DNA of 64,000 nucleotides from assembly GCF_011057975.1 (NCBI RefSeq), contig NZ_CP049109.1, positions 1,147,001 to 1,211,000 on the forward strand, read 5' to 3'. Origin of the DNA: Sphingosinithalassobacter tenebrarum. GTDB taxonomy: Bacteria; Pseudomonadota; Alphaproteobacteria; Sphingomonadales; Sphingomonadaceae. Both the position numbers and the translations under genes were made by a program. Shown piece by piece: positions 28,880-47,396 of this stretch. Each line of letters starts with the position of its first letter. The first letter of the stretch is position 1. The notes beneath the pieces were generated by a model, which did no database searches, had not been told where the DNA came from, and saw only the letters and a program-made list of their open reading frames with translations.

Positions 28880-28894
28880 TGACGCTGATGTCAG
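28880..28894. promoter_or_regulatory. Regulon motif, site 1 (between kbl operon and serine hydrolase)
   Basis: TGACGCTGATGTCAG fits TGAY-NN-TGAY-RTCAG. It sits in the 104-base divergent spacer, 45 bases before the kbl ATG and 46 bases before the hydrolase ATG at 28940, and so could control both units. Confidence 0.65.
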
Positions 28895-28939
28895 TTTTGG
28901 TTTCGCGCGATGGCGCGTCGGGAAATGGGAAGCACTGCA

Positions 28940-30385
28940 ATGATCATCGGAACACGACGTTATGCGGCATTTCTGGCGATGCTGGCCTGCAGCGCATCGG
29001 CCTGCGCCCAGACCGCCGTACCGGCGGCGCCGGTCGCGGCCGCGCCTGAAGCAGCCGCGTCGGGCACGGTCGAATCGCTCGCGCTTCGCGCCGATGCCGC
29101 AATCCGGCAGGCGATGGCGGACGGGCCGTTTCCCGGCGTCTCGGTTGCGGTCGCGCGCGACGGGCAGATTATTTATGCGCGCGGCATGGGGCTCGCCGAT
29201 CGCGAGAGCGGCGCGCCGGTGACGCCGCAGACGCGCTTTCCGATCGGTTCGATTACCAAGCCAGTGACCTGCCTGTCGACGCTCCAGCTCGTCGGGCAGG
29301 GCAAGGTCGCGCTCGATGCGCCGGTCGGTACCTATCTGCCCGATCTTCCCGCACCGAGCCGCGACGTCACCATCCGCCAGCTTGCCGAACATACGTCGGG
29401 CATTCCCAATTATCTCGAGAACCGCGAATTTCCGTACAGCAACCCGGTCGATCTGACGCGTGAGAAGATGCTCGGCTATTTCGCCGACAAGCCGCTCATG
29501 TTCGCGCCCGGTGCGAAGTTCAACTATTCGAATTCCGACACATTCCTGCTCGGGCTGGTGATCGAAGCGGTGACGGGGCAAAGCTATGACCGCTATGTCG
29601 CCGATCACGTTTTCGCGCCGTTCGGCATGGCGCAGGCGGATTTCGGCGCCGACCCCGATCATGCAAGCGGCTATCTGGCGCGCGGCGGCGAATTTGCGCC
29701 GGCGCCCGCCTATGACTGGCTGGCGCCCTTTTCGGCCGGGGCGATCGTTTCGACCGCGCAGGATCTGGTGCGCTTTTCCGACGGTCTGTTCGGCAATGCC
29801 ACGCCCGAAGCCGTGCGCGCGCTGGCGCTGTCGGGCGATGCGCTCAGCGACGGCGGCGCCAATGCCTATCTTCAGGGCTGTCTGATCGAAGGCGATCTCG
29901 ACGGCCGGCGCAAGCTCTCGCACCCCGGCTCGATCTACGGCTTTTCCAGCCATTTCGCCTATTATCCCGACGATCATCTGACCGTGGTGGTGCTGACCAA
30001 CAGCCAGGGGCGCAATTTCCCCGCGCTGACGCTTGAACATCGCATAGCCCGCATTTTCCTCGGCCTGCCCGAACCCGATCTGTCGGGCGTCGCCTTCGAT
30101 CCGGCGGAGGCGGCGTGGATCGCGGGCAATTATGACATCACCACTCATCGCCTCGGCTTCGACCGGCTGGGCTTCGCCGCGAAGGAGGGCGGGCTGTATC
30201 TCAGCTTCGGCGGCGTCGACAGCGGTGCTCCGCCGATCGCGCTGATCGCGCTCGGTGCCGGGCGCTATGCCTCGAGCATCGACACCGAACAGCGCTTCGC
30301 TTTCTCCCGGCAACCAGACGGGACGGTGGCGCTCTCCATGCGCTATTATGACGGTGACTTCCCGATGGTGAAGGCGGCGCAATAG
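28940..30385 (+). CDS. Secreted serine hydrolase, class C beta-lactamase family
   Basis: A 481-residue exported protein; the signal peptide ends near ACAQ-T. The fold is the penicillin-binding/AmpC type: Ser104-x-x-Lys107 (GSITKPVT), Tyr196-Ser-Asn (FNYSNSDTF) and a late HPG motif (LSHPGSIYGF). Members include D-aminopeptidases, esterases and beta-lactamases, so the substrate is uncertain. A C-terminal domain of about 100 residues (DPAEAAWIAGNYDITTHRLG) resembles the lipocalin-like barrels attached to several such enzymes. The ATG at 28940 follows GGGAAG with seven-base spacing. It is divergent from kbl, with regulon site 1 between them. Confidence 0.87.
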   Translation: MIIGTRRYAAFLAMLACSASACAQTAVPAAPVAAAPEAAASGTVESLALRADAAIRQAMADGPFPGVSVAVARDGQIIYARGMGLADRESGAPVTPQTRFPIGSITKPVTCLSTLQLVGQGKVALDAPVGTYLPDLPAPSRDVTIRQLAEHTSGIPNYLENREFPYSNPVDLTREKMLGYFADKPLMFAPGAKFNYSNSDTFLLGLVIEAVTGQSYDRYVADHVFAPFGMAQADFGADPDHASGYLARGGEFAPAPAYDWLAPFSAGAIVSTAQDLVRFSDGLFGNATPEAVRALALSGDALSDGGANAYLQGCLIEGDLDGRRKLSHPGSIYGFSSHFAYYPDDHLTVVVLTNSQGRNFPALTLEHRIARIFLGLPEPDLSGVAFDPAEAAWIAGNYDITTHRLGFDRLGFAAKEGGLYLSFGGVDSGAPPIALIALGAGRYASSIDTEQRFAFSRQPDGTVALSMRYYDGDFPMVKAAQ

Positions 30386-30413
30386 CCGCCGCGCCGACCG
30401 GGGCGAAAAAATC

Positions 30414-30550: not shown

Positions 30551-32728
30551 TCAGAAGTCGAAGGTTGCTTCCACGCCATAGGTGCGCGGCGCGGCGAGCG
30601 TCTGGATCGCCTGCCCCGGCACGATCGCGCCGCTCGAGCGCTGCACCGCATAGTCGCGATTGCCGATATTGCGGCCCCAGAGATAGACGCCCCAGCCCAT
30701 ATCCGTGTCATGGATGCCGACGCGCGCGTTGAACAGCGCGAGGCCGCCCTGGCTGTAGACATTGTCGGCGCCGAAATAGACGCGGCTGTGCGCAATCGCT
30801 TCGCCGCGCAGGAACAGTTCGAGCGAACCGGCGAGCGGTGCCACATATTGCGCGGCCACGCTGCCGCTATGTTCAGGCGCGCGGGGCAGCCTGTTGCCGG
30901 TATAGTCGGCGCCGCCGCTGGTGGCGTTGCGATAGTCGATGAAGTCGGCGTCGAGATAGGTGTAGGTCGCGGTCAGATCGAGCCCGCGCACCGGGCGCAA
31001 CACCAGTTCTGCCTCGAGCCCGCGCGTACGCGCCGACGCCGCGTTCGACGTCATGAAGCGTGGGACGCCGCCGACATTGATCAACTGGTTCACCTGCAGG
31101 TTGGAATAATCCATGCGGAAGACGTCGACCGCGATGCGACCGCGCCCGCCTAGGATTTCCGCCTTCGCGCCTATTTCATAGCTGTCGACATGTTCGGGCG
31201 CATAGCGCGCGTCATCGGTCGGTGAGACGCCGAACACATTGAACCCGCCCGATTTGAACCCGCGCGAATAGCTGGCGTAGAGCAGCACGTCCTCGCCCGG
31301 CTTGTAATTGAGGCTCGCCGAGGGGGAGAAATCATCCTCCGACCGTTCGAGCGTCCGCTGCGCGATGTTGGGCAGCAGCACCTGCCAGGGATCGCCCTGC
31401 TGGGCATGGACCAGCTTCTTCTTCTCATAGGTGTAGCGCAGCCCGGCGGTGAGGCTCAGCCGGTCCGAAAAGGCATAGTCGCCGTGCAGGAAGGCGGCAT
31501 AGCTGTCGCTCGTGACATCACCCTTCACGATCGCGTCGACCGCGTCGGGATAGATGCCGAGATCGACGCCGACCGTCGAGATCGAATTAGTGTCGAGCTG
31601 CTGGTGGAAATAATAGAGCCCGGCGACATAAGTCAGCGCACCGGCCTCACCCGCGTAGCGGAGTTCCTGCGAGACCTGTTCCTGATCCTCGTCGATGCCC
31701 GATGCGAGCATATCGAGCACGGTGTAATCATTGTCGGCGAAATTGTGCCAGGTGAAGCCGCGCCACGCAGTAAGCGACGTCAGCGTTCCGTTGCCGAGCG
31801 CCCAGTCGATTTGCGCCGACACGCCCCAGGTATCACGGTCCTGCACCGGGTCGCGATTTTGCGCGATATTGCGGTCGTTGGGATCGACATCGGCGAGCGG
31901 GGTGCCGGCAAAGGCGCCGTTGTTCAGCACTTCCGAACTGCCCGCATTGGTTCGGTCGCGGCCGATATCGCCGCGCAGGATGATGTCGATGTCGGCGCTC
32001 GGCTGAATGCGCAGCGTGCCGCGCAGCGCGAGCGCGTCGAGATCGTCCTGATCGGTGCCGGTGGCGCTGTTGTGGATGAAGCCGCTGCGCTGATCGATGG
32101 CGCCGGCGAGGCCGATCGACACGCCGTCGCTCAGCGGGCCGCTCGCCGAGGCGCGGAACTGCCACGCATCGTAGTTGCCGTAGCCTGCCTCGAATCGCCC
32201 TTCGAGCGTGTCGCCCGGCAGGCGGGTGATATAGTTGATCGCGCCGGCAATGGTGTTCTTGCCGTAGAGCGCGCCCTGCGGCCCGCGCAGCACTTCGATG
32301 CGTTCTAGATCGAACAGGCTGGCATTGCCCGGCGTCGCGCGGCCCATATAGACGCCGTCGACATAGATGCCGACGCTCTGATCGAGCCCGGGATTGTTGA
32401 GATCGGCCGAAAGCCCGCGGATCGCGATCGATTGCGTGCGCAGGCTGCGGTCGGCGATGAATACCCCGGGGATCTGCCCCGCCAGATCCTCGATGCGCGA
32501 GACATTGGCGTCTTCCAGATCGCTCGCGGTGAATGCCGACAGCGCGATCGGCGTATCGAGCAGCCGCGTTTCGCGGCGTTCGGCGGTGACGACGATCTCG
32601 GGGACGGTATCGTCCTGCGCCGCCGCGCTGTCCCGCGATGCCTGCTGCGCCTGTGCCTGCGTGATGCCGGCGAGCGCGACGCCGGTACAAAGACTCCACT
32701 TCACGATCTTGCGAAACTGATTCGTCAC
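30551..32728 (-). CDS. TonB-dependent outer-membrane receptor (I)
   Basis: A 725-residue receptor with a signal peptide (ITQAQA-Q). The TonB-box/plug start PEIVVTAERRETRLLDTPIA is followed by plug motifs IAIRGLSADLNNPGLDQSVG, IYVDGVYMGR, LRGPQGALYGKNTIAGAINY, and then a 22-strand-type barrel ending with an aromatic residue (VEATFDF). This is the sphingomonad family of TonB receptors commonly linked to catabolic clusters rather than to siderophores. It imports large or scarce substrates into the periplasm with energy from TonB-ExbBD. It is transcribed as its own unit; regulon site 2 lies 26 bases before its ATG. The ligand is unknown. Confidence 0.92.
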   Translation of the reverse strand: MTNQFRKIVKWSLCTGVALAGITQAQAQQASRDSAAAQDDTVPEIVVTAERRETRLLDTPIALSAFTASDLEDANVSRIEDLAGQIPGVFIADRSLRTQSIAIRGLSADLNNPGLDQSVGIYVDGVYMGRATPGNASLFDLERIEVLRGPQGALYGKNTIAGAINYITRLPGDTLEGRFEAGYGNYDAWQFRASASGPLSDGVSIGLAGAIDQRSGFIHNSATGTDQDDLDALALRGTLRIQPSADIDIILRGDIGRDRTNAGSSEVLNNGAFAGTPLADVDPNDRNIAQNRDPVQDRDTWGVSAQIDWALGNGTLTSLTAWRGFTWHNFADNDYTVLDMLASGIDEDQEQVSQELRYAGEAGALTYVAGLYYFHQQLDTNSISTVGVDLGIYPDAVDAIVKGDVTSDSYAAFLHGDYAFSDRLSLTAGLRYTYEKKKLVHAQQGDPWQVLLPNIAQRTLERSEDDFSPSASLNYKPGEDVLLYASYSRGFKSGGFNVFGVSPTDDARYAPEHVDSYEIGAKAEILGGRGRIAVDVFRMDYSNLQVNQLINVGGVPRFMTSNAASARTRGLEAELVLRPVRGLDLTATYTYLDADFIDYRNATSGGADYTGNRLPRAPEHSGSVAAQYVAPLAGSLELFLRGEAIAHSRVYFGADNVYSQGGLALFNARVGIHDTDMGWGVYLWGRNIGNRDYAVQRSSGAIVPGQAIQTLAAPRTYGVEATFDF

Positions 32729-32753
32729 GACGACCCTCCCTGATTCCCAAAAG

Positions 32754-32768
32754 TGATTATGACATCAG
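32754..32768. promoter_or_regulatory. Regulon motif, site 2 (upstream of TonB receptor I)
   Basis: TGATTATGACATCAG, followed by TTTT, fits TGAY-NN-TGAY-RTCAG. It lies 26 bases upstream of the receptor ATG at 32728, in the 188-base gap after the acyl-CoA ligase stop. Confidence 0.65.
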
Positions 32769-32916
32769 TTTTACAAATGTCGAATCAGATTTGTAGCGTT
32801 TCAGGCGAATGCGAGAGACGATTTTCCGCCGTTTTCGCGCGGGGGTGCGCGGATGCGGGACAGGGGTTCGTGCCCGGTGTGGGGGCCGGTTACGCGAACG
32901 ATTCGCGCGCGCCGGT

Positions 32917-34449
32917 TCAGCCGGGCGCGTGCTCGCGCGCTTCGCGGCGCAACGCGACCTTGTCGACCTTGCCGATTGGCAACAGCGGCAATTCGCGGCG
33001 CAGTTCGAAGCGCTTGGGCAGCTTGTAATTGGCCAGCCGCTCGCGGCAATGGGTCAGGATATCGGCTTCGCTCACGTCTGCATCGGCGATGACGAAGGCG
33101 ATGCCGACTTCGTCCCATAGCGGATCGGGAATGCCGACGACCGCGCAGCCGTGCACGCCCGGGTGCGCCTCGATCACCGCTTCGACTTCGAGTGGATAGA
33201 CGTTGTAGCCGCCCGACTTGTACATTTCCTTGATCCGCCCGGCGATCGCATAGCTGCCGTCGGGCAGGCGGCGGCCAATATCGCCGGTGTGCAGCCAGCC
33301 ATCGGCGTCGATCGCCTCGGCGGTCGCATCGGGCCGATTCCAGTAACCGAGCGTCACCAGCGGCGACCGCAACTGGATCTCGCCTTCCTCGCCGACATTG
33401 CCCGCCGGATCGACCAGCCGCACCTCGGCATAGGCGAAGGGATAGCCGACCGAGCGTGCGAGCAGCGCCGGATCGTCGCACGGCGGCATCGCCAGGATCG
33501 CGCTGGTTGCTTCGGTCATTCCGTAATTGGTGGCGAGGCGCGGGTGGATGGCGTGCAGCCGCCGGATCAGCGGCTCGGCCATCGGCGCGCCTTCCCAGAC
33601 GATCAGTTGCACCGCCGACAGATCGAACCGATCGAAATCGGGCAGGTCGAGTTGCATCTGGAACACGCTTGGCACGCTCGCCCAGAGCGTGATGCGCTCG
33701 CGCTGCATCAGCTCGAGCGACTCGGCGGGGTCGAATTTCTCCATCAGCACCACCGTGCCGCCCGCGATCAGCGCGGGCAGGCTGATGTCGACGACGCTGC
33801 CGATATGATTGATCGGGAAATAGTTCAGCACGCGCAGCGGCGCGACCGGCCAGAGTGCGTTTTGCGCCTGCGCAAAGGCATGGATCGCTGCCTGCGAGAG
33901 CAGCGCGCCCTTGGGGCGGCCGGTCGATCCCGAAGTATAGACGATCATGCTGGCCGCGCGCCCGTCGGGGCGGCGCGCGGCGATATCGTCCGCGCCCAGT
34001 GCCGCGCCTTCGCCGAGGAATGTGGGCAAGTCGTGGTCGATGACGACGCTCATGTCGCGACGCTCGGCAGCGAGCGTCGCCAGCTCCTCGCCATAATCGC
34101 GCCCGTCGATTTTGCCGCGCGCGATCATCAGCCGCGGCGTGCTGTCGCCGAGCACGAAGCGCAGTTCCTCGAGCTTGTAGCGCGGGTTGAGCCCGATCCA
34201 GATCGCACCGATCGCGTTGGCGGCGATCAGGCTGGTCACGAAGACCGGCTCGGGCGGCGCAAGGCAGGCAACGCGATCGCCCGGCCCGACGCCGCATGCG
34301 AGCATCGCGCATGCCAGCGCGTCGATCTCGGTTTCGAGCTGCGCATAGGAAATGCGGCGTTCGCCATGAACCAGTGCCTCGGCATCGGGCGTCTCGCGCG
34401 CCCAGCGGCGGACAGCGTCGATCAGCAGCGTGTCAGGCAAGTCGGTCAT
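32917..34449 (-). CDS. AMP-dependent acyl-CoA synthetase/ligase
   Basis: A 510-residue ANL-family enzyme. The P-loop IVYTSGSTGRPKGALLS, the adenine-binding LATNYGMTEATSAIL, the hinge GWLHTGDIG and GRIKEMYKSGGYNVYPLEVE, and the C-terminal catalytic Lys in LPIGKVDKVALRRE are all in place. Such enzymes activate fatty or aromatic acids to CoA thioesters in the cytoplasm; the acid here is probably released by the hydrolases of the cluster. The ATG at 34449 overlaps the end of the GPH carrier gene by four bases, so it is the third gene of maoC-MFS-ligase. Confidence 0.9.
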   Translation of the reverse strand: MTDLPDTLLIDAVRRWARETPDAEALVHGERRISYAQLETEIDALACAMLACGVGPGDRVACLAPPEPVFVTSLIAANAIGAIWIGLNPRYKLEELRFVLGDSTPRLMIARGKIDGRDYGEELATLAAERRDMSVVIDHDLPTFLGEGAALGADDIAARRPDGRAASMIVYTSGSTGRPKGALLSQAAIHAFAQAQNALWPVAPLRVLNYFPINHIGSVVDISLPALIAGGTVVLMEKFDPAESLELMQRERITLWASVPSVFQMQLDLPDFDRFDLSAVQLIVWEGAPMAEPLIRRLHAIHPRLATNYGMTEATSAILAMPPCDDPALLARSVGYPFAYAEVRLVDPAGNVGEEGEIQLRSPLVTLGYWNRPDATAEAIDADGWLHTGDIGRRLPDGSYAIAGRIKEMYKSGGYNVYPLEVEAVIEAHPGVHGCAVVGIPDPLWDEVGIAFVIADADVSEADILTHCRERLANYKLPKRFELRRELPLLPIGKVDKVALRREAREHAPG

Positions 34450-35732
34450 TTGCGGTTCCCAAGGGCAAGCAGGGCGAGGCTGAGCAGCATACAGGCAAGC
34501 GGCCCGGCGGCGATCAGCCAACGCAGCGTTTCGACGGCTTCGGCGCTCTGCACCGGCGCGGCCGACACGAAGCCGCCGATCTGCAAGCCCAGCCCCGAAA
34601 GCGCCGCGCCAAGCGCGAGGCCGCTCTTTTCGCCTGCGGTCCATATCCCGGTGAACAGCCCTTCGCGATCATCGGGAATGGCGTGGATGGCGTGTGCGAC
34701 CAGTGCGAAGGCTGCGACCTGGATCCCCGCGAAAGGTACGCCGAGCGCGACATAGACCGGTAGCATCGGCACGCGATCGGGCATGGCGAGCAGCAGCGCG
34801 GCGCCCCCGAACATCGCTGCGGACGCGATCAGCGCGGCGCTCGCCCCCCAGCGCGCAATGCCGCGCATCCACAGCGGGACGGTGACGATCGTCGCGAGGA
34901 ACATCGCGCCGAGCGCGGTGCCGGTCTCGCCTGCGGGCAGCCCGGCGAGCTGCACCATCCAGTAGGGCGTGAGCGCGGTGACCGCGCCGATCCCGATCAG
35001 CTGCAGGATATAGACGGCGGTAAGCGTCCAGAAGCGTCCAGCGCCCCGAATGAGCGCGCTCGGGCGGAAGCGGGCGCGGGCAGGGGAGGCCTCGCCCGCC
35101 ACCGGCGCGATGAAATGCGAGGGCGTGGCGAAGAAAGTGCTGGTGAGCGCGAACAGACACATCGCCGCGATCGTGATCGACATCACCATATAGCCGCCGC
35201 GCCCGCCGCCGACCGTTTCGGCGATGAACGGTCCCGCCGCCGCGCCGAAGAACACGCCGATCATCGCAAATCCGATCCGCCATCCGGTAATCCGCTCGCG
35301 CACCACCGGATCGGGGCTGGCTTCGGCGGGCACCGCGACGAAGGGGACGGCGAACAGCGAATAGGCACTGGTCATCAGCAAATAGAACAGCATCACCGGC
35401 AGAAATGCCGCATCGCCCTGCGGATAGGGCCAGGAAAAGAGCAGGATGAAGAAGAGCGGGACACCGATCGTCCCGGCGAGAATGAACGGCCGCCGCCGCC
35501 CCATCCGGCTGCGCGTATTGTCCGACCAGCCGCCGACGATCGGATCCCAGAGGATCGCCGAAAGCTTGGGCAGCAGCACCGCCAGCGCTGCGAGGCCCGG
35601 CGATATGCCGAGTATCTCGGTGCAGAAATAGAGGAGCAGGGCGGCCGGGACGGTGTTGATCACCCCTGTCCCGAAGCCGCCGAGCGCCCAGAAGCCGAGG
35701 CGCGGCCCGGCGAGCGCGGCGCGCTCGGTCAC
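34446..35732 (-). CDS. GPH-type MFS transporter
   Basis: A 428-residue carrier with about twelve helices. IVGGWSDNTRSRMGRRRPFI after helix 2 is the signature of the glycoside-pentoside-hexuronide cation symporters, and the N-terminal FWALGGFGTGVINTVPAALL is typical. GPH carriers take up sugars, but sphingomonad members near catabolic genes often take peptides or acids. It overlaps both neighbours by four bases (maoC upstream, ligase downstream), indicating one polycistronic message. It is the inner-membrane step following the TonB receptors of the cluster. Confidence 0.88.
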   Translation of the reverse strand: MTERAALAGPRLGFWALGGFGTGVINTVPAALLLYFCTEILGISPGLAALAVLLPKLSAILWDPIVGGWSDNTRSRMGRRRPFILAGTIGVPLFFILLFSWPYPQGDAAFLPVMLFYLLMTSAYSLFAVPFVAVPAEASPDPVVRERITGWRIGFAMIGVFFGAAAGPFIAETVGGGRGGYMVMSITIAAMCLFALTSTFFATPSHFIAPVAGEASPARARFRPSALIRGAGRFWTLTAVYILQLIGIGAVTALTPYWMVQLAGLPAGETGTALGAMFLATIVTVPLWMRGIARWGASAALIASAAMFGGAALLLAMPDRVPMLPVYVALGVPFAGIQVAAFALVAHAIHAIPDDREGLFTGIWTAGEKSGLALGAALSGLGLQIGGFVSAAPVQSAEAVETLRWLIAAGPLACMLLSLALLALGNRK

Positions 35733-36226
35733 GACTGAGCGTCGCCGCTGGGCGGGACCCAGATTGCCAGCCAGGTGCCGGCGAGCGCGGGGCGTTCCTC
35801 ACCCTCGATCTCGATCTCGACGCCGATCGAGAGCCGTGCGCGGCCCGATTGGTCGAGCGTGCGATCGTCGAGGCGGAACTTGCCGCGGATGCGCGAGCCA
35901 ACCGGCACCGGCGCCACCAGCCGCATCTTGTCGAACCCGTAATTGAGGAAATAGCCGGTCCGCTCGGGCTCGCGCGCCGGGCCTTCGCCCAGGGTTTCGT
36001 GGAGCATGTGGGTGAGCAGCGACATCGTCATGAAGCCATAGGCGACGGTCTTGCCGAACGGCCCCTTGTTCGCCGCCCATTCTGGATCGGCATGCATCGG
36101 ATCATCGTCGAGAGTCGCGATTCCGAAATGATCGATCATCGCCTGGGTCACGGTGAGCCATTGCGATTCGCCCAGCATCGTGCCCGGTTCTGCCGCTACG
36201 ATTGCTCTTTTGTCCTGAACGTCCAT
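35729..36226 (-). CDS. MaoC-like (R)-hydratase
   Basis: A 165-residue hot-dog-fold protein. IDHFGIATLDDDPMHADPEW contains the D-x-x-P-x-H catalytic dyad of MaoC/(R)-specific enoyl-CoA hydratases, followed by GPFGKTVAYGFMTMSLLTHM. It would hydrate or dehydrate an acyl-CoA made by the ligase encoded two genes downstream. The ATG at 36226 follows AGGGGACAGT. It leads the maoC-MFS-ligase operon and is divergent from tetR, with regulon site 3 between them. Confidence 0.87.
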   Translation of the reverse strand: MDVQDKRAIVAAEPGTMLGESQWLTVTQAMIDHFGIATLDDDPMHADPEWAANKGPFGKTVAYGFMTMSLLTHMLHETLGEGPAREPERTGYFLNYGFDKMRLVAPVPVGSRIRGKFRLDDRTLDQSGRARLSIGVEIEIEGEERPALAGTWLAIWVPPSGDAQS

Positions 36227-36250
36227 ACTGTCCCCTGAAGAATAGAAACC

Positions 36251-36265
36251 TGATATCAGTATCAG
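36251..36265. promoter_or_regulatory. Regulon motif, site 3 (between maoC and tetR)
   Basis: TGATATCAGTATCAG, followed by TTTT, shares the outer TGA-N8-TCAG-TTTT frame of the other sites; its central tetrad CAGT differs from TGAY. It occupies the middle of the 62-base divergent spacer, 25 bases from maoC and 24 bases from tetR, which suggests autoregulation. Confidence 0.6.
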
Positions 36266-36288
36266 TTTTAGGACGCAAGGTAGAGCCG

Positions 36289-37083
36289 ATGGCGCGAGCA
36301 GCGAACAGTGCACGAAAGCAGAAAACGCAGGAAATTCCGCTGCGGGACGTCAATTCCTTCGCGCGATATGCGGACTATCTCGCGCATGTGATCGACGCCG
36401 CGCCCAAGCGGACCAAGGGCGAGCGCACGCGCGACATGCTCAAATTCGGCGCGATCAAGGTGCTCGATGATGTCGGCTATCACGCGATGCGCGTGTCGGA
36501 CATCTGCGAGGCGGCGGGCGTCGCGGCGGCGACCTTCTATCTCTATTTCGACAACAAGGAGCAGGTGACACACGTCGTCCTGGCCGAATATCTCGAAGCG
36601 GCGATGGAAATGATGGCGGTGCGGCCCGAAGGGAAGGGGCCGTTCGAGGCGATTCGCGCCTCGCACCTCAAATGGCTCGAAGTGATGCAGGCCAATGCCG
36701 GGCTGATGCGCTGCATCCTGCAACTGGGGGACGAAGTGGAGGATTTCCGCGACCTCGCCCACGGCGCCAACAAGCAATGGTATGAACGGATCGCCCAGTC
36801 GCTGCTGCGCGATCATCCGCAGACGGCGATGCCGTACGATGTCGCGCTGCTCTCCGCCTATGCGCTCGGCGCGATGATGGACGAACTGGCGCGCAAGCTC
36901 TTGATCCATCCCGACCCGGCGCTGCTCGCGCTCAAGGATCGCGCGGTGCCGACGAACGAGGACCTCGCCGATTTCCTCGCCGTGCTCTGGTATCAGGCGC
37001 TCTACGGCCCGATCCCCGAAGGCGCGCGAATCGGCGATTCGGCACAGGCGCTCACGCGCATGCTCGGCGACGGCAACGGGTGA
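36289..37083 (+). CDS. TetR family regulator, candidate regulator of the catabolic cluster
   Basis: A 264-residue protein. The HTH covers about residues 69-88 (VSDICEAAGVAAATFYLYFD, then NKEQV); a 40-residue basic leader precedes it. The C-terminal ligand domain is helical (GLMRCILQLGDEVEDFRDLA). The ATG at 36289 follows AGGTAGAG. It is the only regulator gene between 26 and 48.5 kb, lies divergent from the maoC operon across regulon site 3, and is followed by the second TonB receptor. I infer that it binds the TGA-N8-TCA motif found ahead of every unit of the cluster, including its own. Confidence 0.87.
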   Translation: MARAANSARKQKTQEIPLRDVNSFARYADYLAHVIDAAPKRTKGERTRDMLKFGAIKVLDDVGYHAMRVSDICEAAGVAAATFYLYFDNKEQVTHVVLAEYLEAAMEMMAVRPEGKGPFEAIRASHLKWLEVMQANAGLMRCILQLGDEVEDFRDLAHGANKQWYERIAQSLLRDHPQTAMPYDVALLSAYALGAMMDELARKLLIHPDPALLALKDRAVPTNEDLADFLAVLWYQALYGPIPEGARIGDSAQALTRMLGDGNG

Positions 37084-37147
37084 AATCGTCTGATTACGAA
37101 GGTTTAGCGGCCGCACGCTGCCCGGTTGACAGAGTCGCCCAAAAAAA

Positions 37148-37162: not shown

Positions 37163-37185
37163 ATTTATTTTTTGGGGGTGACGGC

Positions 37186-39393: not shown

Positions 39394-40614
39394 ATGAAGG
39401 GACATATTGTGAAGACCGATCTGCGCGCCGCATTCACTTTGGGCCTCGCCGCCCTGTTTCTCGCGGCGGCCCCCGCCGCGGCGCAGGAGCGCGCGCGCGA
39501 TCTTGGCGTGCCGTTCGACGGGACGCCGGGCGAATTTAACGCGATCACCGACGTTCCCGGCGTCGAAGTCGGCCAGACGACGGTGATCAAGGGCGAGGGG
39601 CCGCTCGACATCGGCCGGGGGCCCGCGCGCACCGGCGTCACCATTATCCACCCGCTCGGCAAGGATAGCGTCGACGGCGTCGCTGCCGGCCGCGCGGTGA
39701 TCAACGGCACCGGCGAATGGACCGGCATGCATCTGGTCGACGAGATCGGGCTGTTCTTCGGGCCGGTCGCGCTCACCGGATCGGGCAATGTCGGGCTGGT
39801 GATCCAGAGCCTGATGGACTGGTCGGTCGAACATGTCCCCGCGCCGCTGCTGGTCACGCGAGTGCTGCCGGTGGTCGGCGAGACGCTCGACAGCCGCCTC
39901 AATGACGTGTTCGGCCATCCGCTCTCGCGCGAGGATGTGTTCGCCGCGCTCGACAGTGCGGCGAGCGGCCCGGTCGCTGAAGGCAATGTCGGCGGCGGTA
40001 CGGGGATGATCGCCTATACCTTCAAGGGCGGGGTCGGTACGGCTTCGCGCATCGTCGAAGTGGGCGGCAAACGTTATACGGTCGGCGTGCTGCTCCAGGC
40101 CAATCACGGCAATCGCGACGATCTGCGCATCGCCGGCATTCCGGTGGGCCGCGAGATCGAGCAGAACTGGCCCGAGATAAACGGCGTTGCCGCGATCGGC
40201 CCCAATGCGGGCGAGCCGCAGGACAAGAATTCGCTGCTGATCGTCATCGCCACCGATGCCCCGCTGATGCCGCATCAGCTCCGGCGGGTGGCGCGCCGCG
40301 CGGCGATGGGCGTCGGGCGCAATGGCAGCACTGCGGGCAATCTTTCGGGCGAGATGGTGCTGGCCTTTTCCACCACCAATGTCTCCACCCCCGGCGGTGA
40401 AATCCATATCGACGGGATGATCGCCGATACCGACAGCGACACGATGAATGCGCTGTTCGCGGCGGTGGTGCAGGCGACCGAGGAAGCGCTGGTCAACCAG
40501 CTTGTCGCTTCGGAAACGATGACCGGCGCCAACGGCGTGAAGGTCTATGCGCTGCCGAGGGACCAGCTCGTCGAAATCCTCGCGCGGCACAATCGGCTGG
40601 TTCCGCAGGACTAA
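39394..40614 (+). CDS. P1-family aminopeptidase (DmpA/BapA type), self-processing
   Basis: A 406-residue exported Ntn-type hydrolase with signal peptide ending AAAPAAA-Q. It matches DmpA and the beta-peptidyl aminopeptidase BapA of sphingomonads: FNAITDVPGVEVGQTTVI, ARTGVTIIHPLG, EGNVGGGTGMIAYTFKGG and PQDKNSLLIVIATDAP. The family cuts itself before the Ser of an N-S bond, here Asn279-Ser280, making that Ser the nucleophile of the beta chain. BapA removes N-terminal beta-amino acids and DmpA removes D- or L-residues, so this enzyme would trim unusual peptides in the periplasm. It is in operon with TonB receptor II. Confidence 0.9.
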   Translation: MKGHIVKTDLRAAFTLGLAALFLAAAPAAAQERARDLGVPFDGTPGEFNAITDVPGVEVGQTTVIKGEGPLDIGRGPARTGVTIIHPLGKDSVDGVAAGRAVINGTGEWTGMHLVDEIGLFFGPVALTGSGNVGLVIQSLMDWSVEHVPAPLLVTRVLPVVGETLDSRLNDVFGHPLSREDVFAALDSAASGPVAEGNVGGGTGMIAYTFKGGVGTASRIVEVGGKRYTVGVLLQANHGNRDDLRIAGIPVGREIEQNWPEINGVAAIGPNAGEPQDKNSLLIVIATDAPLMPHQLRRVARRAAMGVGRNGSTAGNLSGEMVLAFSTTNVSTPGGEIHIDGMIADTDSDTMNALFAAVVQATEEALVNQLVASETMTGANGVKVYALPRDQLVEILARHNRLVPQD

Positions 40615-40715: not shown

Positions 40716-43115
40716 CTATCGCGCCGGCGTCAGCGTCATGTCACCCACCGCGCTCTTGCGCAGCGTTTCCGGGTCGCCGGTCAGTGTCACATATTCGCCC
40801 CGGCTCCACGGTTTCGCGAAGCTGCCGAACCAGTGCGACAGCGGATTGCCCGAAACGCCCGGCGCGATCATGTACAGGCTTTTTTCCGGCGCAGCGAGGT
40901 CGATCACCTGCCGATAGCGCGGGCCATAGATATCCGCCCAGGGGTCCTCGCCCCACAGATCGGTCTGCCCGGCATTGACGGTGTTCGCACCGCCGCCCGC
41001 AGGCACGCGGATTGTCACCAGCCCGCCGATCAGCGGGACATGGGAGAGGATGTCGTGGCGGAAGGAGGCGCGGTGCACGTCGCCCCAGCGCCAGCGCGTC
41101 ATGTCGCTTCCCTGGCTTTCGGCAAGATCGCCCACTGCGTCATCAAGCGCCTTCGCCGCAAGCGCCGGGCAGTCGGCGCACCAGCCGCTGCCGGGTTGCA
41201 GCAGCCGGTCGAGGCGGGGGCGGTTTTCCTTGAGCCAGGCGTCGGCAAGTCCGCCTAGCTTCGGTCGCAACAGCGCCAGTCCCGCCGCGCGCTGCCACGC
41301 CGCCCAGATCAGAGGCTCGGGCCGATCGGCCGCCATTTCCCCGTCCCAGGCAAACAGCATCGTCTGCGCCTGCCGGCCCTGTTCGGTCTGCGGCCGCGCA
41401 TCGCGCAGTACCGGCTTGAGCGCCGCGACCTCCAGCGAGACCGTATCGAGCTGCAGCGTCGTCATCCGGTCCATGCCGATGCCCTGCGCGGGTGCGAGCA
41501 CCGCCTCGATCCGCCCCGCGCGCCAGCCGGGTACGAACGCCGTGCTGTCGAGCGCCCCGCCGCTGCCCGGGACCAGCCGGTTGTTGCCGTTGGCGAGAAA
41601 ACCCGATTCGGGATCGCTTTGCGCGGGCAATTGCTCGGCGGGCAGATAGCCGGTCCAGTCGAACCGTCTCTCCCAGCCGGGGACGGGCAGAAAGCCGTCG
41701 CCTCTGCGCAGCGGTAGCCGGCCGGCCGAGATCATGCCGATCGTCCCGTCGCGCGCGGCGAAGGCGAGGTTGTGCTGCAGTCCGAAACCGCGCGCGGCGG
41801 CCTCGAACCCCTGCCAGTCGCGCGCTTCGGCCATGCCCAGAAACGCCTGCACCAGCGGGTTCCCGTCCGTGTTGTCGAGCCCCGACACCGCGAGCACATA
41901 GCCGGGGCCAATCTGCTCCTTCAGCAATTGCGCGGCGTCCGCGTCGATATCGGAAAGGACGATGCCGTGCCGGGTATAGCGCAGCGTCACCGCCTGCGCC
42001 TCGCCGCCCTTTACGGGGATCGAAACGGTGCGCGTGCGGAACGGCGCCGATCCTTCGGGCGTCAGATAGCGGCCCGGATCGGCAGGATCGATGCGCTCGA
42101 CGAAGATGTCGGACTGGTCCGCCATCATGTCGGTGATGCCCCAGGCGATGAAGCCGTTGCGCCCCGATGCGACGGCAGGCGATCCCGGGCGCGATGCGCC
42201 GACGATCTCGAACCCCGGCCAACTCATCCGTACGGGATAATAGTCCGCCGGCGCGCCGAGCGGGCCGTGCGGATCATTGGCGAGCATCGGCTTGCCGCTC
42301 ACCGTGTGGCTGCCCGACACGGTCCAGCTGTTCGACGCGGGATGCGATCGGCCGAAGGGGAGCGAGGAGACATTCGCCGCCGCCTTCCCCTGCCATCGGA
42401 TGGCGCTGCAGCTATCCGTCGTCGCACGCGACCGCTCGGGCAGCCCGGGATAGGTGATCGGCCGTTCGTCGGGCCGGGCATAAAGGTCGTGCAACCGCTC
42501 GCAATCGAGCTTGGTCGCCAGCCGCGCGCGCAGCATTTCCTCGCGCCAGTCGCCCATGCCGAGCGCAACGAGCCCGCCCAGCCGATTGACATCGGCATCG
42601 GTCCAATGGCCGGGCTCCACGCCCAGCAGCACGAATTCGGGCGGCAGCGCGCCCTTGCGCGTGTCGATCCCGGCATTGATGCCGAGCACATAGGCATGGA
42701 TCGCCGTGCGCGTTTCCGGGCTGTTGCGCGCATGCGTCGCTGCGGCGACGCGATCGAGATCGAGCGCGGCGACCAGCTTGTCGGTCGGCAGCCCCGATTC
42801 GCCCACCGCTTCGGTGATACGCCCCTGTCCGGCGAGCCGAGTCATTTCGAGCTGCCACAGCCGGTCCTGTGCATGGACATAGCCGAGCGCGAAATAGGCG
42901 TCCTCGCGCGACTTGGCGAAGATGTGCGGCACGGCATGGGCGTCGCGGATGATCTCGATCCCCGCGCGCGGCCCGGCGACGCTGCGGTCCGCCGAATAAT
43001 CGGGCAGCGAGCTGCGCAGCCACAGATAGCCGCCCCCGGTCGCCGCCGCCGCGATGCCGGCAAGGCCAGCGCCGGTGAGGAGGGCGACTCGCCCGAGCCG
43101 CTTCATCGAAATCAT
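40716..43115 (-). CDS. Penicillin acylase family N-terminal-nucleophile hydrolase
   Basis: A 799-residue exported or membrane-tethered protein with an N-terminal hydrophobic segment (ALLTGAGLAGIAAAATGGGY). It has alpha-chain motifs (IIRDAHAVPHIFAKSREDAY, LGYVHAQDRLWQLEM) and the processing site ahead of the nucleophile Ser261 (SNSWTVSGSHT) with PMLANDPHGPLG behind. FLANGNNRLV and a late GGGANTVNAGQ segment complete the beta chain. This family hydrolyses N-acyl bonds in penicillins, acyl-homoserine lactones, cephalosporins or N-acyl amino acids. Its ATG shares one base with the serine hydrolase stop (TAATG), making it the fourth gene of the aminoacylase operon. The exact acyl substrate is not readable. 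Confidence 0.9.
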   Translation of the reverse strand: MISMKRLGRVALLTGAGLAGIAAAATGGGYLWLRSSLPDYSADRSVAGPRAGIEIIRDAHAVPHIFAKSREDAYFALGYVHAQDRLWQLEMTRLAGQGRITEAVGESGLPTDKLVAALDLDRVAAATHARNSPETRTAIHAYVLGINAGIDTRKGALPPEFVLLGVEPGHWTDADVNRLGGLVALGMGDWREEMLRARLATKLDCERLHDLYARPDERPITYPGLPERSRATTDSCSAIRWQGKAAANVSSLPFGRSHPASNSWTVSGSHTVSGKPMLANDPHGPLGAPADYYPVRMSWPGFEIVGASRPGSPAVASGRNGFIAWGITDMMADQSDIFVERIDPADPGRYLTPEGSAPFRTRTVSIPVKGGEAQAVTLRYTRHGIVLSDIDADAAQLLKEQIGPGYVLAVSGLDNTDGNPLVQAFLGMAEARDWQGFEAAARGFGLQHNLAFAARDGTIGMISAGRLPLRRGDGFLPVPGWERRFDWTGYLPAEQLPAQSDPESGFLANGNNRLVPGSGGALDSTAFVPGWRAGRIEAVLAPAQGIGMDRMTTLQLDTVSLEVAALKPVLRDARPQTEQGRQAQTMLFAWDGEMAADRPEPLIWAAWQRAAGLALLRPKLGGLADAWLKENRPRLDRLLQPGSGWCADCPALAAKALDDAVGDLAESQGSDMTRWRWGDVHRASFRHDILSHVPLIGGLVTIRVPAGGGANTVNAGQTDLWGEDPWADIYGPRYRQVIDLAAPEKSLYMIAPGVSGNPLSHWFGSFAKPWSRGEYVTLTGDPETLRKSAVGDMTLTPAR

Positions 43116-44629
43116 TATTGTCGCTCCAGTGTGAGATCGTCGATCGCCATTTGCGCCACGCCGCCGTCGGGGCCGGTGCGGAAGGTCACGAAACCGAGCC
43201 GCCCTGCCTGCGGATCGTCCATCGGCAGCATTTCGAACCGGTCGCCGTTCCAGTGGCGCAGCGCGAAGCCGCCGGTACCAATGCGCAGCACGAGCTTATC
43301 GCCCTGGGGCGCGACTTCGGCGGCGCCGATCGGCCCGCCATCGTCATAGCGCCCGGCATAAGCGTCGAGCGGCAGGCGCGGGCGCGGGTTGGCCAGCACC
43401 GCCGCGCGCAAGGCCGCCTCGCGCGCTTCGATGCGCGCGATGATCGCGTCCTGCCGGGCGAGGAAGTCGCGGCCCCATTCGCCCGGCTCGCGCCCCTCGA
43501 TCCGATCCATCAGGTCGAGGAACAACGCACGCGGGAGCGCGGCATTGGGACTGTTCTCCAGCGCGGCGAAGCCCAGCCCATATTGCGGGACGATCGCAGT
43601 GAAACAGCGAAACCCGCCCTGGCTGCCGTGATGATAGAGTACCTCTGTCCCGTGATAGCGCATCACGAACCAGCCGAGCGCATAGGCCTCGTCGCTCACC
43701 CCCGGCACGTCGTGAAAGGGCGAATCGTAAAAGGGCCCGCGCAAGGGAATCTGCGCCTCGCGCGTTTCGGCGAGCCCCGCCTGCGTCAGTTCCGGCCCCT
43801 CCGCCGCGCCAAGCTGAAAGGCAAGCCATTTCGAAAGGTCGCGCACGCTGCTGTTGATCCCGACCGCGGGCAGGCCGACCTGATCGGGATAGTTCCACGC
43901 GATCGGCACCATCCTGCCGTCGACCAGGTCATGTGGCGTGGCCGCATCGGGATCGGCGCGCGCGGTGCGATAATCGGCGCCCGTGCGTGTCATGCCGAGC
44001 GGCGCCCAGAAATTCTCCCTTGCGAAATCGCGCCAGTCCGTCCCCGTTCGCGCCGCGACGACTTCGCCCGACAGTGCGAACATGTCCGAGGCATAGGCAT
44101 AGTTGGCGCGGAACGCGTGGATCGGCGCCGAGGTCGCCACGCCTTCGAGGAACGCCCGGCGGCTTGGCGCGACCGCGCGGATCGCCTGGCTGCGCAGCCC
44201 CGCACGGTTGGACAATATGTCGCGGATGGTGAGCGCGCGCGTCACCCAGGGATCGCGCGCGCGGAACCAGGGCAGGCTGTCGGTCACCGGATCGTCCCAG
44301 CCGATCATCCCGCGCTGGACGAGCAGCGCGATCGCGGCAGCCGCGAAAGGCTTGCTGCACGAACTGAGCGCGAACAGCGTGTCGGGATCGACCGGGTCGT
44401 TGCCGCGCACGTCGCGCACGCCATAGCCGCGCAGCCATGTCGGCTCGCCCTTGCGCACCACCGCGATCGCGAGCCCCGGCTGGTGCCAGCGCGTCATTTC
44501 GGCGCGCACCTGCCGGTCGAACGCGGCCATGTCGACGCGGCTCTGTGCCGCCGCCGGAGCGACCTGTGCGAGCGTGAGCGCGAGCAAGGCCGCAATCGCG
44601 CCCAGCCGGCGCAGCGGGTTCGAACTCAT
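43115..44629 (-). CDS. Secreted serine hydrolase, class C beta-lactamase family (second)
   Basis: A 504-residue exported protein; the signal peptide ends near APAAA-Q. The active site has Ser90-Cys-Ser-Lys93 (ALSSCSKPF), a Tyr-Ala-Ser motif (YAYASDMF) in place of Tyr-x-Asn, and HHGSQGGFRC for the third motif. The C-terminal 100 residues (LDAYAGRYDDGGPIGAAEVA) look like a DUF3471-type accessory domain. The Y-A-S variation suggests esterase or peptidase rather than beta-lactamase action. It is translationally coupled to both neighbours: its start overlaps the third hydrolase by four bases, and its stop overlaps the acylase gene by one base. Confidence 0.87.
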   Translation of the reverse strand: MSSNPLRRLGAIAALLALTLAQVAPAAAQSRVDMAAFDRQVRAEMTRWHQPGLAIAVVRKGEPTWLRGYGVRDVRGNDPVDPDTLFALSSCSKPFAAAAIALLVQRGMIGWDDPVTDSLPWFRARDPWVTRALTIRDILSNRAGLRSQAIRAVAPSRRAFLEGVATSAPIHAFRANYAYASDMFALSGEVVAARTGTDWRDFARENFWAPLGMTRTGADYRTARADPDAATPHDLVDGRMVPIAWNYPDQVGLPAVGINSSVRDLSKWLAFQLGAAEGPELTQAGLAETREAQIPLRGPFYDSPFHDVPGVSDEAYALGWFVMRYHGTEVLYHHGSQGGFRCFTAIVPQYGLGFAALENSPNAALPRALFLDLMDRIEGREPGEWGRDFLARQDAIIARIEAREAALRAAVLANPRPRLPLDAYAGRYDDGGPIGAAEVAPQGDKLVLRIGTGGFALRHWNGDRFEMLPMDDPQAGRLGFVTFRTGPDGGVAQMAIDDLTLERQ

Positions 44630-45771
44630 GGGGCGGCTCCTTCGGGGCGCGACATCCGCGCGACGTCTTCAGCGGGGCAGAGGGGTATCGGGTTGGCGCC
44701 GATCAGCAGCGCCTCGACCTGCGCGACCAGAGGCGTGAGGTCGCTCTCGCCATTGGTGAGGATCGCTACCGCCAGCCCGCGCTCGGGAAAGCTGGCGAGA
44801 TAGGCGCGATAGCCCGCGATCACGCCATAATGGCTGACATGCGCGACACCGTTCGCCGCGTCGAGATAGACGCCGAGACCATATTGCGCGACGCGGCACC
44901 CCTCCGGCCCGCGCCGCGCGAGGCTGCCGTCGGAGAGTCGTGTCGGCGTCAGCATCCGCGCGCGCATCTGCGGCGGCAGCACATCGTCATGGAGCAGCGC
45001 GTCCTGCCAGCGGAGCAGGTCGGGCACCGTCGATCGCATCGCGCCCGCGCCGCCCGGAACACTCATCGACACCCACGCGGCATGGACGAACCCGCCCGGC
45101 GCCTCTGGATCGGCGGCATAGCCGATGGCGCGGCCGGGCACGATGTCGCGCTCGTCGTCGAGCGCGGTGCGGTCGAGGCCGAGCGGGACGAAGAAGGCCT
45201 CGTTCAAATAAGCGCCGAGCGGCATCCCGCTCGCGCGCTCGATCGCCGCGCCGACCAGATAATAGCCGCTGTTGCTGTAATCCCAGCCCGCCCCGGGTGC
45301 GAAGCGGGGCGCAAAGCCCGCGATCATCGCCAGCATTTCGGCCTCGCCGCGCCGCCGCGACCAGCCTTCGCCTGGCGCGACATCGCCATTGGTGAACGAC
45401 GTGACGCCGCCGGTATGGCCAAGCAGTTGATAGAGACTCGCCGGGCCGGGCAGCATGTCGGGCGTCAGCGGCCCCGCCTCGGCCAGCCGCAGCGCCGCGG
45501 CGGCAGTGAATTGCTTGGTCACCGATCCGATGCGGAACACCGTCTCGGGCGTCACCGCCACGTCATGCTCGATATCGGCCAGGCCATAGCCGCGCGCGAG
45601 GACGATCTCATGCCCCTGCATCACGCCGATCGCGATGCCCGGCGCCTTGCCCTCGGCGACCCAGTTGCGCGCTGCTTCGGCGACGGTCTCGACGGGAAGC
45701 GATTGCGCCTGTGCGCCCGGAGCGCACGCGGTGAGCAGCGCCGCGAGGGCCAGGGACAGCGGCAACCTCAC
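44626..45771 (-). CDS. Secreted serine hydrolase, class C beta-lactamase family (third)
   Basis: A 381-residue exported protein, probably a lipoprotein (LLTAC at residue 16). Ser83-Val-Thr-Lys86 (GSVTKQFTA), Tyr-Ser-Asn (WDYSNSGYYLVG) and a His-Tyr-Gly third motif (VSHYGVIAGY) complete the active site. It is only the catalytic domain, without the C-terminal extension seen in the two longer paralogues of the cluster. It lies between the aminoacylase and the 504-residue paralogue, overlapping both by four bases (ATGA). Side-by-side paralogues suggest division of labour on one substrate class. Confidence 0.87.
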   Translation of the reverse strand: MRLPLSLALAALLTACAPGAQAQSLPVETVAEAARNWVAEGKAPGIAIGVMQGHEIVLARGYGLADIEHDVAVTPETVFRIGSVTKQFTAAAALRLAEAGPLTPDMLPGPASLYQLLGHTGGVTSFTNGDVAPGEGWSRRRGEAEMLAMIAGFAPRFAPGAGWDYSNSGYYLVGAAIERASGMPLGAYLNEAFFVPLGLDRTALDDERDIVPGRAIGYAADPEAPGGFVHAAWVSMSVPGGAGAMRSTVPDLLRWQDALLHDDVLPPQMRARMLTPTRLSDGSLARRGPEGCRVAQYGLGVYLDAANGVAHVSHYGVIAGYRAYLASFPERGLAVAILTNGESDLTPLVAQVEALLIGANPIPLCPAEDVARMSRPEGAAP

Positions 45772-47393
45772 TCGGGCTGCTGCCGCCGCACGAACCTGCC
45801 CGGCGTCGCGCCGGTCGCCGCGCCGTCTTCATAGACGACGACGCCGTTCACCAGCACCGTGTCGATCCCCGCAGAGGGGCGCGAGGGGTGGAGATAGTCG
45901 GCGCGCGCAGCGACTGTCGCGGGATCGAAGAGGACGATATCGGCCGCCTTGCCCTCGGCGATCCGGCCGCGATCGGCAAAGCCGAGATGATCGGCGGGGA
46001 GCGACGTCATCTTGCGGATCGCCTCTTCGAGTGGGAAGAGGTGCAGATCGCGGCTATAATGGCCGAGCACGCGCGTGAAGCTGCCCCAGGAGCGCGGATG
46101 CGCCTTGCCCAGCGCGCGGACGGTGTCGTCGACATAGAAGCCGTCGCTGGCGATCATCACCCAGGGACGGACGATCAGTTCGCGGATATCGGCTTCGTCG
46201 ATGCTGCCGAGCGTCAGCCGCACGTCGCGATGCCGGGTCACCAGCCGGACGAGCGCCTCGAACGGCGGCACGCCCCAATCCTCGGCGAGCAATTGCAGGT
46301 TGCGGTCGATCAGATCGGGCGCGTCGGGCGCATCGACGATGCGCATCGATCCGTACCCGCCGACCGCCTTGATCCACGCAAAGCCGCCATCGACACCCTG
46401 TTCGGTCGCGTCGCGCAGCGCCGCGCGCCGGTCGGGATCGGCAAGCATCGCCGCCAGCGCGTCGGCGCCGGGCACCTTGCCGTCCGGCCCGAGCAGCAAC
46501 TCGCGGGCATAGCGCAGGGTGGCGCCGTCATAGGGATATTGATCGGCGACCACCGACACCCCTTCGGCCTGCGCCGCCTCGACCATCGCGATCACGTCGC
46601 CGATCCGGCCGCGATTGGCGAGGCCGACGGCCTTCAGATGCGCGATCTTTACCGGCACGCCGGTCGCACGGCCCAGCCGCACGACTTCGCGATCCGATTC
46701 GAGCAGATGCGCGCCGGGATCGCGGACATGCGAATCATAGCTGCCGTGAAAAGGGAGGACTTGCCGCGCCAGCGCCTGTACTTCGGCCTCGTCGGCATAC
46801 ATGCCCGGATCGTACATCAGCCCGGTCGACAGGCCGACGCAGCCCATTTCCATTCCCGCGCGCACCTGCGCTTCCATCGCGGCGAGTTCTTCCGGCGTCG
46901 CGGTGCGGTGCTCGCCGGGCATCACTTCGCGGCGAATGCCGTTATGCCCGACATAGCAGCCGTAATTGGGGCCCGATCCGCGCCGCGCCAGTTCGTCGCG
47001 CAACATGCCCATCTGCCGCACCGAAAGTTCGCCGTCGGGGCTCGCCATGATGGTAGTAACGCCCTGTGAGAGATCCTGCACGTCGCGCATCGGCCCGGGC
47101 ATTTCGGGGACCGATTCGGGGACATGGCTGTGCGGATCGATGAATCCGGGGGCGACCGCCAGGCCGGTGGCGTCGATATGCCGCCGCGCACGCAGCCGGG
47201 TGTCGGGTGCGGCGACGCGGGCGATGCGCCCGTCCCGCACCGCCACGCTCGCCGCGCGCGGCGGCGCGCCGCTGCCGTCATAGAGCGTGCCGCCGGTGAT
47301 CGCGATGTCATAGACCGGGCCGGTGGCGCAGCCCGAAGCCAATGCCGCAGCGGTCGCAACGGCAACGATTCGGAAGAAAGATGACACTGACAT
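45768..47393 (-). CDS. N-acyl-D-amino-acid deacylase-like amidohydrolase, lipoprotein
   Basis: A 541-residue metallo-amidohydrolase with lipobox ALASGC. VAPGFIDPHSHVPES is the metal-binding strand; MEMGCVGLSTGLMYDPGMYA and HVRDPGAHLLESDREVVRLG, then VPVKIAHLKAVG, are D-aminoacylase signatures; the C-terminus has LADHLGFADRGRIAEGKAAD. The usual G-x-C-G metal-bridging Cys motif is replaced by MASPDGELS, marking a subgroup. D-aminoacylases free D-amino acids from N-acyl or dipeptide forms. It heads the operon with two serine hydrolases and penicillin acylase. The ATG at 47393 begins the signal peptide and lies inside regulon site 5; an ATG at 47408 is the alternative. Confidence 0.85.
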   Translation of the reverse strand: MSVSSFFRIVAVATAAALASGCATGPVYDIAITGGTLYDGSGAPPRAASVAVRDGRIARVAAPDTRLRARRHIDATGLAVAPGFIDPHSHVPESVPEMPGPMRDVQDLSQGVTTIMASPDGELSVRQMGMLRDELARRGSGPNYGCYVGHNGIRREVMPGEHRTATPEELAAMEAQVRAGMEMGCVGLSTGLMYDPGMYADEAEVQALARQVLPFHGSYDSHVRDPGAHLLESDREVVRLGRATGVPVKIAHLKAVGLANRGRIGDVIAMVEAAQAEGVSVVADQYPYDGATLRYARELLLGPDGKVPGADALAAMLADPDRRAALRDATEQGVDGGFAWIKAVGGYGSMRIVDAPDAPDLIDRNLQLLAEDWGVPPFEALVRLVTRHRDVRLTLGSIDEADIRELIVRPWVMIASDGFYVDDTVRALGKAHPRSWGSFTRVLGHYSRDLHLFPLEEAIRKMTSLPADHLGFADRGRIAEGKAADIVLFDPATVAARADYLHPSRPSAGIDTVLVNGVVVYEDGAATGATPGRFVRRQQPE

Positions 47394-47396
47394 CAG
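47382..47396. promoter_or_regulatory. Regulon motif, site 5 (between amidohydrolase and FAD oxidase)
   Basis: TGACACTGACATCAG fits the consensus exactly. It overlaps the amidohydrolase start codon and lies 45 bases before the FAD oxidase start at 47442, in the divergent spacer. Confidence 0.65.

Follow-up and report, generated by a model that had tools for sequence, protein, structure and literature searches.

How are the sixteen genes of a putative catabolic cluster in Sphingosinithalassobacter tenebrarum brought under common control? The cluster lies in a stretch of 64,000 nucleotides (contig NZ_CP049109.1 of assembly GCF_011057975.1, positions 1,147,001 to 1,211,000), here called the window, in whose numbering coordinates are given. 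The original prediction, made from the letters of the window, had described a five-copy motif, TGAY-NN-TGAY-RTCAG, at every transcription unit of the cluster and had assigned it to the TetR-type protein encoded at 36289-37083. The follow-up analysis indicates that the five sites are very probably the operators of this local, autoregulated TetR protein, which would repress the cluster. All five sequences are present where they had been reported. Four read on the plus strand: operator 1 (28876..28899, core 28880-28893) in the divergent spacer between kbl and the gene of serine hydrolase 1, operator 2 (32750..32773, core 32754-32767) before the gene of TonB-dependent receptor 1 (TBDR1), operator 4 (37144..37167, core 37148-37161) before that of TonB-dependent receptor 2 (TBDR2), and operator 5 (47378..47401, core 47382-47395) in the divergent spacer between the amidohydrolase gene and the gene of an oxidase dependent on flavin adenine dinucleotide (FAD). 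Operator 3 (36245..36268, core 36251-36264) reads on the minus strand in the divergent spacer between maoC and tetR, so that tetR does have a site in its own promoter, as had been claimed. The five operators, in five spacers, head all seven transcription units (16 genes, tetR included). Brought to one strand, their sequences are TGACGCTGATGTCAGTTTT, TGATTATGACATCAGTTTT, TGATACTGATATCAGGTTT (minus strand), TGACAGTGACGTCACATTT and TGACACTGACATCAGGTTT; each carries TTT at positions 17-19, and positions -4 to -2 are A or T in every copy. The inner TGAY, previously credited to four sites, is present in those and also in the fifth once the copy at 36251 is taken in the opposite direction (minus strand, 36264 to 36250, TGATACTGATATCAG, 0 mismatches). 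The copy at 37148 is in its place, and its final C leaves it one mismatch from the 15-mer first proposed. A more fitting description of the motif is a TGAY-N6-RTCA palindrome flanked by A/T, within which an extra TGAY gives a second centre 3 bp away.

Exact counts distinguish these sites from background. The 14-mer TGAYNNTGAYRTCA occurs five times in the window against 0.03 copies expected from shuffles, and an exact scan of the 64 kb found no sixth, in agreement with the original prediction; 19-mers at one mismatch or fewer also number five, against 0.02 expected. Looser matches mean little, because the 15-mer at three mismatches gives 88 matches in the window where 50 are expected. The abundance of such loose matches is what could be said for a chance resemblance of five short sequences. 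This explanation is vanishingly improbable, given exact counts far above shuffles and the recurrence of the sites at matching places in relatives, which excludes it. In the whole 3.86-Mb host genome the 14-mer has eight exact copies, five of them in the cluster; the other three are without the A/T flanks and lie inside long mechanical open reading frames (ORFs) that are not confirmed as real genes. The 19-mer TGAYNNTGAYRTCANNTTT, which includes the TTT flank, has five exact copies genome-wide, all in the cluster and one per spacer. Since that flank was derived from these same five sites, the confinement of exact 19-mers is partly a matter of construction, and other genomes provide the independent test.

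A protein search returned at least 130 TetR homologues, of which 120 were listed; 35 of these were aligned with the window protein, and 16 loci from the 36-row alignment were located in genome contigs. Six loci encode TetR proteins at 57-96% identity, and the exact 19-mers in their genomes number five in Sphingosinithalassobacter portus (G298), three in Sphingomonas canadensis (G299), four in Sandaracinobacteroides sayramensis (G300), three in Sandaracinobacter neustonicus (G301), two in a Caulobacteraceae metagenome-assembled genome (MAG; G302) and one in a Niveispirillum MAG (G303), with none in the genomes G304 and G305. Seventeen of the 18 exact copies in the six genomes with a close orthologue fall within the cluster stretch. 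When the window is compared with the first four of these relatives, a site is found in 25 of 25 spacers, 20 times as an exact 19-mer. The others are a site with one mismatch before TBDR2 of S. canadensis, sites with two mismatches before TBDR1 of S. sayramensis and before both TBDR1 and the amidohydrolase gene of S. neustonicus, and an exact 14-mer in reversed orientation before TBDR1 of S. canadensis. Operator 1 is exact in all five aligned cluster genomes. The agreement of S. portus, whose TetR is at 96% identity, adds little, and the weight rests on the three relatives at 73-79%. The motif was thus recovered at matching places in syntenic clusters of other sphingomonads, even where the genes behind it differ: in S. 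neustonicus phyH stands directly behind operator 1 in place of kbl-SDR, and dmpA behind operator 4 (neither kbl-SDR nor TBDR2 was found there). The Caulobacteraceae MAG has sites in the maoC/tetR spacer, before and after the oxidase gene and before TBDR2, and the Niveispirillum MAG has two sites at tetR, each with one mismatch.

A scan of 298 genomes of the family gave an exact match in 23, of which 20 carry a single copy and three carry five, three and four; the reversed-pattern control gave one match overall. Those three are the sole family genomes with a TetR match of at least 433 bits, and they alone have more than one exact copy, which also argues that the motif is not common in unrelated promoters; in the host genome itself no exact 19-mer lies elsewhere. 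Two family genomes with weaker TetR matches (257 and 251 bits) have no exact copy. The pattern was defined by the five host copies, and the other two multi-copy genomes had no part in it. G300 and G301 share coordinates with G212 and G163 of the family scan; they were taken as identical genomes and were not counted twice. At one mismatch, copies outside the cluster number four in G303, one in G298 and one in G304, and the reversed-pattern controls at equal threshold number two, both in G298. Together with the comparison of relatives, the confinement of the motif supports a single TetR regulon, as read from sequence. It also bears on the proposal that a more global regulator reads the motif and that tetR is one target among others. 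The binding by TetR is a prediction, which leaves this proposal some room; it is nonetheless very unlikely, as the exact 19-mer occurs nowhere else in the host genome, each of the 295 genomes of the family that lack a close TetR orthologue has at most one exact copy, and TetR relatives with another recognition helix have another palindrome in the equivalent spacer. Wider scans added few TetR relatives: at E 1e-40 or better, and with the host included, 4 of the 385 genomes scanned in the class had one, as did 11 of 396 in the order. The close orthologue has a patchy distribution, being present in three of the 298 genomes of the family and, among the six of the host genus in that sample, in the host alone, a pattern suggestive of transfer or of repeated loss.

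The form of the operator was refined with 30 aligned sites, 25 of them from outside the window. The S. canadensis TBDR1 site, a 14-mer only, and the two-mismatch matches G300:214398, G301:16745 and G302:66121 were left aside. The aligned sites have A or T at -4 to -2, TGAY at 1-4, a second TGA at 7-9, RTCA at 11-14 and TTT at 17-19, and complementarity across them peaks at centres 7.5 (0.56) and 10.5 (0.53), with values of 0.38 or less elsewhere. The outer palindrome is taken as the dimer site because it is kept, with other letters, in distant relatives; the inner TGAY may be a second register, part of a -10 element, or both. A resemblance of this kind is the starting point for another explanation, in which an unusual sigma factor would recognise the motif as part of a promoter, or the motif would be a small repeat, and in neither case an operator: its first seven positions, TGATACT, look like an extended -10, and start codons are close by. 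That the motif is palindromic, serves divergent pairs, goes with TetR and is flipped in orientation before TBDR1 of S. canadensis makes this explanation highly improbable.

The position of the operators relative to promoters and starts gives an indication of the sign of regulation. A putative -35 element of the TBDR2 promoter, TTGACA (37126..37131, plus strand), precedes operator 4 by exactly 16 bp in all five aligned genomes, so that the -10 would fall inside the operator if this promoter role is right. Before serine hydrolase 1, a TTGCAC-17-TATGAC pair shares bases with the start of operator 1, and the probable ATG of the amidohydrolase gene (47393-47391) lies inside operator 5, with an in-frame ATG at the matching place in all five genomes. 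These positions suit blocking, in that a protein bound there would be expected to block transcription. The same operators and the same TetR could instead serve activation, alone or together with repression of tetR itself; the sign is not given by sequence, and one site serves divergent pairs. Activation is nevertheless improbable, because operator 4 at the expected -10 and the amidohydrolase ATG inside operator 5 both fit blocking better.

Repression by TetR is therefore the preferred reading, and several points weigh against it. Some TetR proteins act as activators, which makes the repression uncertain. The exact copy of G303 (L122, G303:C72:770-788) is on a separate contig of 6.3 kb in which no cluster gene could be recognised. 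At two mismatches or fewer, no site was found before several units of the two MAGs (TBDR1 and serine hydrolase 1 in both), nor before the FAD oxidase gene of S. sayramensis, which is located apart. The statement that every unit is marked consequently holds for the window and its near relatives, and fails for the two more distant MAGs and for the oxidase of that one relative. The aligned sites were collected by pattern, and their base frequencies are biased towards it. Two further points concern the recognition helix considered below: a distant TetR match, L125, pairs a TGAY site with another helix, and the two operator classes are split by a single change on the tree.

The link between operator and protein comes from a comparison of 37 TetR rows. 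Where the helix reads [AS]TFYLYF, a TGAY-N6-RTCA site lies within 330 bases upstream in nine of nine rows; where it reads GSFY[VI]YF, TGAG-N6-CTCA takes its place in nine of 11, L040 and L123 being the exceptions, and L048, matched in two pieces, has a GSFYVYF helix together with a TGAG site. Among the remaining 16 rows, one has a TGAY site (L125, helix GTFYRYF) and none has a TGAG site. L125 has an internal stop, and the sequence upstream of it, ATAAATGATACTGACATCATTTTC, belongs to the TGAY class with a different helix. On a tree of 25 of the 37 rows (those above 170 bits, without L048, L135 and L137) the classes are separated by one change, which agrees with co-evolution of helix and operator and counts as one event. 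TGAG sites also precede a TonB receptor gene at L042, L045, L046 and L047; with the A/T filter applied, none was found before that gene at L043 and L048. In S. neustonicus (L036, G301:C23:10713-15851, and L054), a paralogous tetR at 35% identity stands beside the window-type cluster; it is accompanied by maoC, ligase and TonB receptor genes of its own and by a site of the TGAG-N6-CTCA class, so that both classes occur close by, each with its own tetR. A broader proposal, which is rather unlikely as a whole, is that a TetR subfamily usually found beside maoC, and often beside an acyl-coenzyme A (CoA) ligase gene and a TonB receptor gene, split into TGAY-N6-RTCA and TGAG-N6-CTCA classes by a helix change (ATFYLYF versus GSFYVYF) that insulates paralogues even side by side, and that here it governs an island for the scavenging of lipopeptides or D-peptides by way of a three-half-site operator with two overlapping dimer registers 3 bp apart.

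The protein itself is weakly related to characterised regulators. Its gene (36289..37083, plus strand), the proposed source of the reader of the five operators, matches Pfam TetR_N at 46.8 bits (cutoff 24), and its structure model has a mean predicted local distance difference test (pLDDT) value of 88.4. The model matched 30 PDB entries at E 0.001 or better, mostly EthR, with an all-helical fold like that of solved TetR proteins and a modest likeness: the best matches were EthR (E 1e-4, template modelling score 0.57 by query) and FadR (E 5e-4), at about 20% identity. Mycobacterial EthR is thus nearest by fold and Bacillus-type FadR nearest by profile of the DNA-binding part; the FadR profile NF053878 of NCBIfam gave 43.7 bits against 200, and the gene neighbourhoods of both proteins differ from that of the window cluster. 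Other TetR matches within the host genome are weak, namely three that cover 58-105 residues at 28-33% identity.

From the sites, their near confinement, conservation and palindromic form and their co-occurrence with TetR, we infer binding and repression, to which the following scheme adds a proposed inducer and substrate. A TetR dimer would bind the inverted repeat (A/T)3-nn-TGAY-N6-RTCA-nn-TTT, placed in or across the region where the seven units begin, and keep these 16 genes, tetR included, repressed until a pathway compound bound the C-terminal domain and released the repressor. The TonB receptors would then import substrate and the exported hydrolases would cut it, and the resulting pieces would be processed by the MFS carrier, the ligase and MaoC, the FAD oxidase and Kbl/SDR. 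The ligase and maoC genes adjoin tetR, which makes an acyl-type inducer the best guess; it might be an acyl compound or acyl-CoA that the neighbouring ligase produces as an intermediate, an idea put forward tentatively. Somewhat more doubtful still is that the substrate is an acylated or D-amino-acid peptide, as the gene families hint. Biologically this would be an ordinary kind of regulon and a clean new example of it, giving a TetR protein that had not been studied a probable operator, target set and boundary. Treating the 16 genes around tetR as one functional unit may aid the substrate search for the two TonB receptors and the exported hydrolases, and the paired helix and operator difference among relatives offers a small natural system for repressor specificity.

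The regulon had not been recognised from the literature, and no comparable account was found in one open-access library, RegPrecise not being covered; a check there for TGACATCAG as a substring, together with TetR, gave nothing relevant among the matches listed. The available part of a survey of 33 regulator groups names the TetR groups FabR, FadP, LiuQ, PsrA and RutR (PMC5343134). The last four resemble the present case in that a TetR-type regulator is predicted to act at several sites among catabolic genes, and none of the five is described there with the gene set of the cluster; this comparison concerned gene content and, for RutR, also the profile, on which the window TetR scored 26.2 bits against a cutoff of 368. 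In the bsd I bile-salt cluster of Caenibius tardaugens, the portion of the report at hand proposes the TetR palindromes ATAGGGCCATTG and GCATGCGGGATGC, which are unlike the window operator (PMC12882949). The two clusters have in common a TetR protein, an amidohydrolase, a CoA ligase, MaoC and a sphingomonad host; bsd I also has Scd4AB and a monooxygenase, absent from the 16 window genes, and was set apart by this description rather than by comparison of proteins (PMC12882949). PheR of Sphingobium sp. SHPJ-2, according to the accessible text, is likewise a repressor of a sphingomonad catabolic operon, and TonB receptor genes rise in its deletion; it differs in being treated as an IclR-family protein, for which a GCAACG element is essential and a GC-rich region of 44 bp is protected (PMC13273656).

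The genes of the cluster, annotated by ORFs and profiles, agree with the 16 genes and three divergent spacers reported before, in the order kbl-SDR-phyH, serine hydrolase 1, TBDR1, maoC-MFS-ligase, tetR, TBDR2-dmpA, the amidohydrolase-side operon and the FAD oxidase (Pfam, NCBIfam). On the minus strand follow a PhyH-type dioxygenase (25980..26810, Pfam PhyH), an SDR oxidoreductase (26830..27621, adh_short_C2) and the glycine C-acetyltransferase Kbl (27618..28835), which exceeds the equivalog cutoffs of NCBIfam PRK06939 (549.2 vs 460) and TIGR01822 (534.9 vs 493). Serine hydrolase 1, of beta-lactamase fold (28940..30385, plus strand), has a start picked by eye, the mechanical ORF and its Pfam Beta-lactamase match beginning at 28910 (28910-30385). 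TBDR1 (30551..32728), the acyl-CoA ligase (32917..34455, AMP-binding), the MFS transporter (34446..35732, MFS_2) and the MaoC-type hydratase (35729..36226, MaoC_dehydratas) are on the minus strand, and TBDR2 (37186..39372) and the DmpA-type peptidase S58 (39394..40614, Peptidase_S58, 334 bits) on the plus strand; both receptors match TonB_dep_Rec_b-barrel and Plug. The amidohydrolase-side operon, on the minus strand, comprises the amidohydrolase (45768..47393, Amidohydro_3), which the original prediction called a D-aminoacylase, serine hydrolases 3 (44626..45771) and 2 (43115..44629), both of beta-lactamase fold (Pfam Beta-lactamase), and a penicillin-amidase family hydrolase (40716..43115, Penicil_amidase, 629 bits). 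The FAD-dependent oxidoreductase of the DAO family (47442..48569, Pfam DAO) is on the plus strand. Narrower NCBIfam assignments were not reached: the penicillin-amidase protein scored 57.3 against 950 bits for PvdQ-type acylases (NF051460), and serine hydrolases 1-3 scored 104.6, 49.3 and 76.3 against 443 bits for D-aminopeptidase (NF009622) and 93.3, 68.6 and 68.6 against 415 bits for class C beta-lactamases (NF033085). By eye, export-like N-terminal signals were not seen in the ligase, MaoC, Kbl, SDR, PhyH and oxidase, and were seen in the three serine hydrolases, DmpA, the penicillin-amidase protein and the amidohydrolase.

Outside the cluster, matches of TRAYNNTGAYRTCANNTTT at two mismatches or fewer were considered as further members of the regulon. 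The host genome has 20 such matches, the five operators and 15 others, against seven for the reversed-pattern control; mechanical ORFs were listed for seven of the 15 (L014, L015, L019 to L022 and L026), and Pfam was run on nine neighbouring proteins for four of these seven. A match at 304622 lies inside an SDR gene and one at 989329 near a ParA-like ATPase, and neither is convincing. The matches at 1698322, directly 5′ of an alpha/beta hydrolase gene, and at 3502355, adjoining a Band-7 gene, are not convincing either but may yet belong to the regulon. The former (L015, G000:C1:1698322-1698340) is a near-perfect palindrome, TAATGGTGATATCACATTA, directly before its hydrolase gene and perhaps the site of another regulator; the latter (L026, G000:C1:3502355-3502374) is an A/T-rich palindrome, TTAAAGTGATATCATATTTA, at the start of the Band-7 gene.

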